Positions 48,763 to 50,823 of a DNA stretch of 64,000 nt are shown one piece after another. Under the pieces are notes generated by a model. The model was not told the DNA's origin. It was given only the letters and a program-made list of their open reading frames with translations, and did no database searches. Source of the stretch: Beijerinckiaceae bacterium (GTDB taxonomy: Bacteria; Pseudomonadota; Alphaproteobacteria; Rhizobiales; Beijerinckiaceae). The position numbers and the translations under genes were made by a program. Location of the stretch: positions 34,244-98,243 of the forward strand of contig CANGJJ010000011.1 of NCBI GenBank assembly GCA_947454485.1, read 5' to 3'. Position 1 is the stretch's first letter, and each line of letters opens with the position of its first letter.

Positions 48763-49985
48763 GTGCGCCCTCAAAGCTTCTGCCAGTTGCTGACGCTTTG
48801 AAGCGCATTATCGAGGCAGCAAAGCTGCTCGAAAGCGAGCGCGTTTCTTTGCCCGACTCTTTGGGGCGAACACTCGCACAAGATGTCACTGCTCGCCGGA
48901 CACAGCCACCTTTCGCCGCCTCCTCGATGGATGGCTATGCGGTGCGCGCCAGTGATGTCGCATCGAGCCCCGTAACTTTGCGTGTGATTGGCACAAGCGC
49001 AGCGGGCCATCGTTTTCATGGTGAGGTGAAAGCCGGTGAATGCGTGCGCATCTTCACAGGTGCACCTTTGCCCGATGGGGCTGACACAATTATCATCCAA
49101 GAGAATACGAGCGCACACGACGGCAGCGTTGATATCTTGCAAAGCGAGTCGCGGGGCACTTATGTGCGACCTGCTGGGCTCGACTTTAAGGAAGGCGATG
49201 TGCTTCTGACCAAGGGTACGCGCCTTGGTCCTTGCGAACTTGCAATTGCTGCTGCAATGAATCACGGCAGCCTCGAGGTCACACGCAAACCGCGCATTGC
49301 CATTCTGGCAACTGGCGATGAATTGGTGCAGCCCGGACAAGAGCCCGGCCCCGATCAGATCGTTGCCTCCAACACTTTTGCAGTGGGTGCTTATGCGCGC
49401 CATGCTGGCGCGGACATTATCGATCTTGGTATTGCGGGTGATACATTCGCAGACATCGAGCGCTGTATCCGCGCGGCGCATGAGGCAAAGGCCGATGTGC
49501 TGGTGACGTTGGGCGGTGCGTCAGTCGGTGATCATGATCTGGTTCAAAGCGCGCTCAACCGCGAGGGCATGGAGCTTGGCTTCTGGAAGATTGCCATGCG
49601 CCCCGGCAAGCCACTCATGCATGGCAAGCTGGGCGCGATGCAGATCCTTGGCCTGCCCGGAAATCCAGTTTCCGCGATTGTCTGCGGCGTGCTCTTCCTC
49701 GTGCCGCTGGTGCGCGCATTGAGTGGCGACCCACATGCGGGGGCTGAGCGCAGCGAAGCGGCTATCTTGGGCGGGGATTTGAAAGAGAATGACTCGCGCG
49801 AAGATTATCTGCGTGCAGAGTTGAGCGTGGGGACGGGCCTGCCCATTGCAACGCCCTTCAGTCGCCAGGATTCTTCCATGCTGCGTGTGCTGGCGCAGTC
49901 CCATTGTCTGGTGATCCGCCCCCCGCGGGCGCCTTCTGCCAAAGCTGGCGAGGCGTGCCGGATTATTCGGCTGGGGTCGTTTTAA
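48759..49985 (+). CDS. moeA: Molybdopterin molybdotransferase MoeA
   Basis: A 408-residue enzyme that inserts molybdate into adenylated molybdopterin. PPFAASSMDGYAVRA (about residues 49-63), FTGAPLPDGADTII, RPAGLDFKEGD, ILATGDELVQPG, VTLGGASVGDHD, MRPGKPLMHGKLG and LGLPGNPVSAIVC cover the family motifs. The start at 48759 overlaps the moaC stop. Its 3' end overlaps the convergent Ntn-hydrolase candidate by 23 bases. lexA, which often follows moeA in Hyphomicrobiales, is absent here. Confidence 0.96.
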   Translation: MSAPSKLLPVADALKRIIEAAKLLESERVSLPDSLGRTLAQDVTARRTQPPFAASSMDGYAVRASDVASSPVTLRVIGTSAAGHRFHGEVKAGECVRIFTGAPLPDGADTIIIQENTSAHDGSVDILQSESRGTYVRPAGLDFKEGDVLLTKGTRLGPCELAIAAAMNHGSLEVTRKPRIAILATGDELVQPGQEPGPDQIVASNTFAVGAYARHAGADIIDLGIAGDTFADIERCIRAAHEAKADVLVTLGGASVGDHDLVQSALNREGMELGFWKIAMRPGKPLMHGKLGAMQILGLPGNPVSAIVCGVLFLVPLVRALSGDPHAGAERSEAAILGGDLKENDSREDYLRAELSVGTGLPIATPFSRQDSSMLRVLAQSHCLVIRPPRAPSAKAGEACRIIRLGSF

Positions 49986-50823
49986 GCAGCGAGCGGCGCG
50001 CACCCGGCTCAAGCCGCAAACCAATGGGTTTGGCGCCGCGCAGGCCCGTAGGGCGCTTGCGCTGCAGCCAGCGGAAGCCATCGTGACGGGTGATGACCGC
50101 CAGATCGACCGGGCCACCAATTGTTTTGACCGATTTATCGGCGCGCAGGCGCTCGAAGGTCAGCGATGTATCCATCAGGAAGCTCGCAACATCGACCGCA
50201 TCGAGAATCGGCATGCCGGGCGTGACGAGCTGGGGACTATCAACCTCGCAGTCGGCCAACTCAGCTGCGTTGCGGTTAAAAAGCGACAGTCCGTAATTCT
50301 CTGTGTCGACGGGCGTATCTGAGGTCAAAACCTCGCCCAGAAGGCGGTTGATGCAGCCGGCATCCCCCTCCCAGCTCAGCCCATATTCGTCCTCATTCCA
50401 GACGAGTTCGGGCTCAATGCGCGAGCCGCCGTCAAACCGCACCGACCAGGTCTCTGGCAAAGTGCGCCCGGAAGAATAGCCACTGAGAATCAGTGCGCTG
50501 CGAATCGGTGAGATGCTCGCCATCGAGGCGTCGTAGATGAATGTCTGGAGCTTCTGGACCAGCTCCTCGACCGTGTAGTCCTCTTTGTTCACATACAAAG
50601 GGTCGCCCCGCAGCGAGGCGCGGATGCCAAAGTCCTGTATGATTCCCGAGAGGGCGCGGGTGCCGATGGCGCCATCGCCGCTGATGAGAACACCAACGGG
50701 AACGCCCTTCAAAAGCTGGAGATTCTTCTCGCCGTTCAAATACAAATGACCACGATGCATGACCGCACTATCGCTCGCCATCACAACGCCGTCTTGAACC
50801 TTGATCGACAGAATAATCGTCAC
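49963..50823 (-). CDS. Candidate proteasome-like Ntn-hydrolase
   Basis: A 286-residue protein not belonging to HslV or Anbu by eye. The N-terminus MTIILSIKVQDGVVMASDS resembles mature proteasome beta chains. After Met removal Thr2 would be the N-terminal nucleophile, and D18 falls at the place of Asp17. K33 lies one residue short of the usual Lys33 spacing. GVLISGDGAIGTRAL matches the oxyanion-side glycine region, and the C-terminal IGGPVDLAVITRHDG recalls the end strands of the fold. There is no signal peptide. The fold call is by motif reading only; substrate and assembly are unknown. It lies between moeA (convergent) and tRNA-Cys. Confidence 0.6.
   Translation of the reverse strand: MTIILSIKVQDGVVMASDSAVMHRGHLYLNGEKNLQLLKGVPVGVLISGDGAIGTRALSGIIQDFGIRASLRGDPLYVNKEDYTVEELVQKLQTFIYDASMASISPIRSALILSGYSSGRTLPETWSVRFDGGSRIEPELVWNEDEYGLSWEGDAGCINRLLGEVLTSDTPVDTENYGLSLFNRNAAELADCEVDSPQLVTPGMPILDAVDVASFLMDTSLTFERLRADKSVKTIGGPVDLAVITRHDGFRWLQRKRPTGLRGAKPIGLRLEPGARRSLLKTTPAE

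Follow-up and report, generated by a model that had tools for sequence, protein, structure and literature searches.

The locus considered here raises a question: What kind of enzyme is encoded by a stand-alone bacterial gene, the product of which would expose a threonine as soon as its initiator methionine is removed? The gene lies in a window of 64,000 nucleotides from a Beijerinckiaceae bacterium (GenBank assembly GCA_947454485.1, contig CANGJJ010000011.1, positions 34,244 to 98,243), to which all coordinates refer. It occupies 49963..50823 on the reverse strand, with the stop codon at 49963-49965, and encodes a proteasome-like protein of 286 residues, just as a previous sequence-only reading of this DNA had described. 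Its GTG start is the earliest ATG, GTG or TTG downstream of the preceding in-frame stop. We consider it probable that this protein is a threonine hydrolase of the proteasome β-type fold, which would become active upon loss of its methionine, would use Lys33 and Asp18, and probably would not form a double barrel like that of HslV.

The residues that had suggested an N-terminal nucleophile (Ntn) hydrolase, namely Thr2, Asp18 and Lys33 (positions 1, 17 and 32 of the mature chain), are all found in the window protein together with the motifs GVLISGDGAIG and GGPVDLAVI. Their conservation was followed in an alignment of 133 rows, encompassing 52 of the 58 proteins retrieved by a protein search at E ≤ 0.001 (the window's own among them; P0012, P0014, P0028, P0030, P0057, and P0058 were excluded), 71 new proteins from the best 120 of the 621 matches that a second search with a 20-row profile gave among 7999 candidates scored, and 10 fetched loci. 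These rows, 132 of them distinct and 3 contained in another row, are related sequences and not independent draws. Thr2, the predicted nucleophile (50818..50820, on the reverse strand like all other features of the gene given below), is Thr in 119 and Ser in 7 of the 126 rows that have a letter at this position, with 7 gaps; the position does not vary freely, which the sequence-only reading had named as a refuting outcome. Asp18 (50770..50772) and Lys33 (50725..50727), the counterpart of proteasome Lys33, are each present in 132/132 lettered rows with one gap, the gaps at all three positions belonging to rows whose called start falls downstream. Invariant throughout the 133 rows are also Gly49 (50677..50679), matched by hand to Gly47 of the oxyanion hole, Ala242, and both Trp151 and Gly153 of a W-x-G motif (residues 151-153, 50365..50373) that lies just ahead of predicted helix H3 and has mostly Glu, Ala, Asp or Ser, and also Gly or Asn, as its middle residue (position 152). 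The glycines of a K-[T/S]-[V/I]-G-G block (50113..50118) follow closely, Gly236 in 133/133 and Gly237 in 129/133 rows. A minor feature concerns position 20, where six of the seven Ser2 rows carry Cys for Ala and the seventh keeps Ala, while one Thr2 row has Cys as well (alignment A3). Serine replacing threonine at the nucleophile position is known also in BPH, according to PMC5777263.

Among the 126 rows that have a residue at the threonine position, 103 start exactly one residue ahead of Thr/Ser; the other 23 extend further at the N-terminus and have V, L or M directly before Thr/Ser, that is, a possible GTG, TTG or ATG start, as expected if the real start sits there. The start is conserved one codon ahead of the threonine, which leaves no room for a propeptide. 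The ratio of nonsynonymous to synonymous substitution rates (dN/dS) is 0.16-0.25 for the window gene versus six orthologues, and therefore the gene is under purifying selection where present. Judged from these alignments, the pattern of residues and start in the window protein is not a matter of chance, since the family keeps all three residues fixed, the start is conserved and dN/dS is low.

Structure prediction and a fold search against Ntn hydrolases, the check that the sequence-only reading had proposed, returned a proteasome-type fold and not the different one that would have refuted the idea: a proteasome β core flanked by helices H1 (residues 58-69), H2 (85-103), H3 (156-169), and H4 (206-226), in agreement with the matches in the PDB. 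From this model it is almost certain that the window protein would fold as a proteasome-type Ntn hydrolase. The offset between model and PDB-chain numbering is 1 in 38 of the 50 structural rows listed, which places residue 2 on chain residue 1; the remaining 12 are numbered otherwise. An earlier model built from 47 close relatives was poor, with a predicted local distance difference test score (pLDDT) of 59, and the matches listed for it were already proteasomes. Between H3 and H4 the predicted secondary structure, of low confidence inside this segment, delimits an insertion of 36 residues (50209..50316), the length of which ranges from 17 to 38 residues across the 133 rows (median 36). Elsewhere the protein is compact: H2 is followed by 3 residues, and strands S3 and S4 are separated by 2, a spacing that reaches 13 residues in some rows. 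The C-terminal tail (residues 264-286, 49966..50034) has pLDDT below 50 at 264-283, and no helix is predicted after residue 226.

What else of this kind does the organism possess? A Pfam search of its genome (3.29 Mb, 20 contigs) found two Proteasome matches and missed the window protein. By sequence and context we named the two genes HslV (L001) and Anbu (L002); the HslV gene is adjoined by an AAA ATPase gene, which we take to be HslU. Hence three proteasome relatives coexist in one genome, and the idea of a separate, single-gene Ntn hydrolase besides HslV with its ATPase has held, with Anbu as an additional companion. The statement that Anbu starts differently proved wrong, as the Anbu of this very genome likewise begins with Met-Thr (MTYCC...); the N-terminal start alone consequently cannot separate the two proteins.

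The chemistry and the assembly that we infer can be outlined as follows. Methionine aminopeptidase would remove the start methionine and expose the threonine, so that no autocatalytic step would be needed. The N-terminal threonine would then attack peptide bonds, activated by Lys33 with the help of Asp18, and Gly49 would form the oxyanion hole; the substrates may be peptides or unfolded proteins, processed without a dedicated unfoldase. We consider it very probable that Thr2 acts as the nucleophile, and a chemistry directed at peptide bonds appears likely. The H3/H4 insertion would sit on the face where β rings stack, which makes a monomer, a split ring or a single ring more probable than a double barrel of the HslV type; we lean slightly toward such an open assembly.

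Several points weigh against this reading. The window protein has no Pfam match at E ≤ 1. Residues 174-185 and 188-194 of the insertion are modelled below pLDDT 50, and because of this low confidence how the insertion affects assembly can only be guessed. Even within its genus the gene occurs patchily, with near-complete matches to the 20-row profile in 21/51 genomes and matches to one profile end in two further genomes, which makes its job dispensable. Moreover, the proteasome has Ser129 and Ser169 as auxiliary residues, for which there are no clear counterparts, since position 152 is variable and position 235 is Val, Ile or Leu. This lack of conserved auxiliary residues might favor a catalytically dead protein with a structural or binding role, akin to α subunits. 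Such a protein is very improbable, however, because position 2 admits only Thr or Ser and both Asp18 and Lys33 are invariant among lettered rows, a constancy that a binding protein would not need.

Connectase, as described by Fuchs et al. 2021 (PMC8665760), is a proteasome-like homologue that works as a specific ligase, demonstrating that the fold can ligate rather than hydrolyse; this, too, counts against a hydrolase. A ligase of this sort, in which an amine rather than water would receive the peptide from the acyl-enzyme formed at Thr1, would agree with the absence of an unfoldase gene adjacent to the window gene. Yet connectase lacks H1 and H2 and has a two-helix insertion between S3 and S4, whereas the window protein has H1 and H2 predicted and only 2 residues at the latter place; the connectase architecture is not the one predicted here, and we hold ligation to be quite unlikely. 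The remaining rival retains the same fold and active site but places them in a double ring resembling that of HslV or BPH, degrading proteins within a closed chamber either alone or with a housekeeping unfoldase. All four helices H1-H4 are predicted, and BPH forms a double ring without a known unfoldase (PMC8665760); with the insertion probably lying on the stacking face, we nevertheless regard this arrangement as unlikely, if less so than ligation. The case matters because self-compartmentalising proteases are usually understood with proteasome relatives as their reference. The present subfamily is compact, its catalytic set is fixed, the window protein is covered by no Pfam or NCBIfam model, and the insertion should hinder the stacking of rings; it offers a tractable test of whether the fold also works outside chambers, and the genome itself provides an example of three family members side by side, HslV, Anbu, and the window protein.

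Is this a new kind of proteasome relative? The sequence-only reading had placed it outside the known bacterial families, which is right with respect to HslV and Anbu and to the lack of any Pfam or NCBIfam family at E ≤ 1. The Pfam Proteasome profile (PF00227) that it had recommended leaves the window protein below the curated cut-off, the genome search recovering only the two other genes, and weakly matches 34/47 relatives at E ≤ 1. The claim is otherwise not supported: Fuchs, Alva, and Lupas (2021; PMC8665760) have already described 22 proteasome-like families of bacteria and archaea that await characterisation, and the anatomy seen here fits their PMI group. The features of a proteasome-like family in their sense are present: Thr1/Ser1, Asp17, and Lys33, a predicted β fold with H1-H4, and a counterpart of Gly47 that was assigned by hand. 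With PMI proteins the window protein shares Thr1/Asp17/Lys33, the lack of a propeptide and the H3/H4 insertion, which is carried by PMI-2 to PMI-6. It does not have the long insertion after H1/H2 that is described for PMI-3/4, and it differs from PMI-5/6 in that S3 and S4 are separated by just 2 residues. PMI-2 would be the best anatomical fit by comparison with the published descriptions, although some of the 133 rows have up to 13 residues between S3 and S4. The window protein would accordingly belong to a group that is known but uncharacterised and would not be a new kind. No experiment on a PMI protein was found in the titles and abstract openings searched, subscription papers and preprints lying outside that search.

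Among better known systems, Anbu gives the top structural match (Z 21.2) and shares the Met-Thr start without propeptide, but the C-terminal coiled-coil helix H5 of Anbu has no predicted equivalent after residue 226, where the tail is of low confidence; the identification as Anbu was set aside for the want of this helix. HslV has the same Thr1/Asp17/Lys33 and β fold, while the window protein is longer and carries the H3/H4 insertion with no ATPase gene adjacent. It was rejected as an HslV since its neighbors include no HslU ATPase, in contrast with the genome's own HslV beside its AAA ATPase. Alignment of the family with hhalign gave probabilities of 4.8 versus Anbu and 19.7 versus HslV, non-matches that are uninformative because the control of Anbu versus HslV failed too (1.4). 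From the β subunit of the 20S proteasome the window protein differs by the absence of a propeptide and by the H3/H4 insertion. No α partner was seen in the Pfam genome search, an absence that constitutes weak evidence because the same search misses the window protein. No chain named BPH appears among the structural matches listed, which does not exclude a likeness to BPH.

Beyond the genus, the 20-row profile is matched in 8/149 genomes at family level, four of them only via the C-terminal block of a frame of 403-443 residues, and in 14/289 at class level, two across the whole profile. The closest named matches by identity are Rhizobiales/Beijerinckiaceae assemblies, and relatives occur also in assemblies of Acetobacteraceae, Acidobacteria, and Gemmatimonadaceae. 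In the sequences as stored, the copy from Gemmatimonadaceae and one of those from Pararoseomonas (L039 5749-6354; L038 5956-6819) depart from the family frame before its end. PADLOC, applied to five family members, gave no match for four and a match at 0.017 for one.

The surroundings of the gene contain no partner ATPase, as had been noted before. On one side lie moaC and moeA, the latter convergent on the forward strand (48744..49985; Pfam MoeA_N, MoCF_biosynth, and MoeA_C) and overlapping the 3' end of the gene by 23 bases (49963-49985), an overlap that is identical at locus L005. On the other side there are tRNA-Cys, tRNA-Asn, and a glutamyl-tRNA-synthetase-type gene (class I Glu/Gln), and an RmuC gene is also among the neighbors. 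Clustering of all open reading frames of at least 90 residues on both strands, in the short flanks of 45 fetched loci plus the window, found synteny to be stable only within clades: moeA recurs in L003, L005, L007, and L008 besides the window, whereas in a second clade 12 loci have a HAD-type phosphatase and 11 have ribose-5-phosphate isomerase A (by Pfam). Once the gene and its antisense frames are set aside, eight neighbor clusters extend over more than one clade. A TctC-type transporter receptor, present in 11/46 loci (e.g. L003 8115-9152 and L009 2404-3432), forms the largest; its Pfam E values are 6.6e-5 to 9.8e-7, not all of which pass the cut-off, its distance and strand vary, and it may simply represent a large paralogous family. 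The other seven comprise 2-4 loci each. No partner gene is suggested by this clustering of short flanks at 46 loci, and PMC8665760 likewise reports no telling genomic context.

The nearest profile relative found is a family of ~420 residues (alignment A6), with a full-length match at 99.2% (E 1.1e-19), which matches phrog_5990 end to end. It shares the Met-Thr start, Asp18, the active-site Lys and a C-terminal VGGP...GF.W block, but is >100 residues longer, the extra lying chiefly in the stretch that separates the first helices from the central strands. Its members are found in phages (13 phage records), satellite phages, and plasmids, and from length and phage distribution it is perhaps PMI-4. 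Relatives on the rhizobial plasmids NZ_CP006879.1, NZ_CP149876.1, CP090551.1, and NZ_AP023255.1 (L124-L127; E 6e-76 or better with A6) have multiubiquitin and ThiF (E1-like) genes a few kb away, in two different gene orders. In the two plasmid records tested with Pfam, Multi_ubiq is fused to Prok-E2_E and accompanied by a ThiF protein, with Prok-JAB in one. Nine plasmid matches in all comprise these four with the operon, two other annotated plasmids on which it is absent within 6 kb of the relative, one unannotated record, and H7 and H9, which were left out. In an order-wide sample, the ~420-residue profile is matched in 9/297 genomes, counting the window's own genome via the C-terminal block and one fragment of 82 residues, and Multi_ubiq in 21/297; a single genome has both families, on different contigs, and Multi_ubiq is not matched in the window's genome. 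The pairing with the ubiquitin-like operon is not general and the window gene is not involved; for this reason, the operon is kept out of the mechanism proposed above.

A bolder and rather doubtful extension would see in the window protein a third, uncharacterised α-proteobacterial enzyme of proteasome type that dispenses with ring chamber and ATPase. Such an enzyme would act through Thr1 as a monomer or in an open form, its H3/H4 insertion would make up the substrate site, it might be a peptide ligase, and its sister would be the phage and plasmid family of ~420 residues, which on some rhizobial plasmids lies beside the ubiquitin-like/E1/E2/JAB operon. Three genes of the latter family (L121 9274-10479; L122 8001-9296; L123 6001-7251), borne by phages and, close to its end, by a Streptococcus satellite phage, are annotated as hypothetical.
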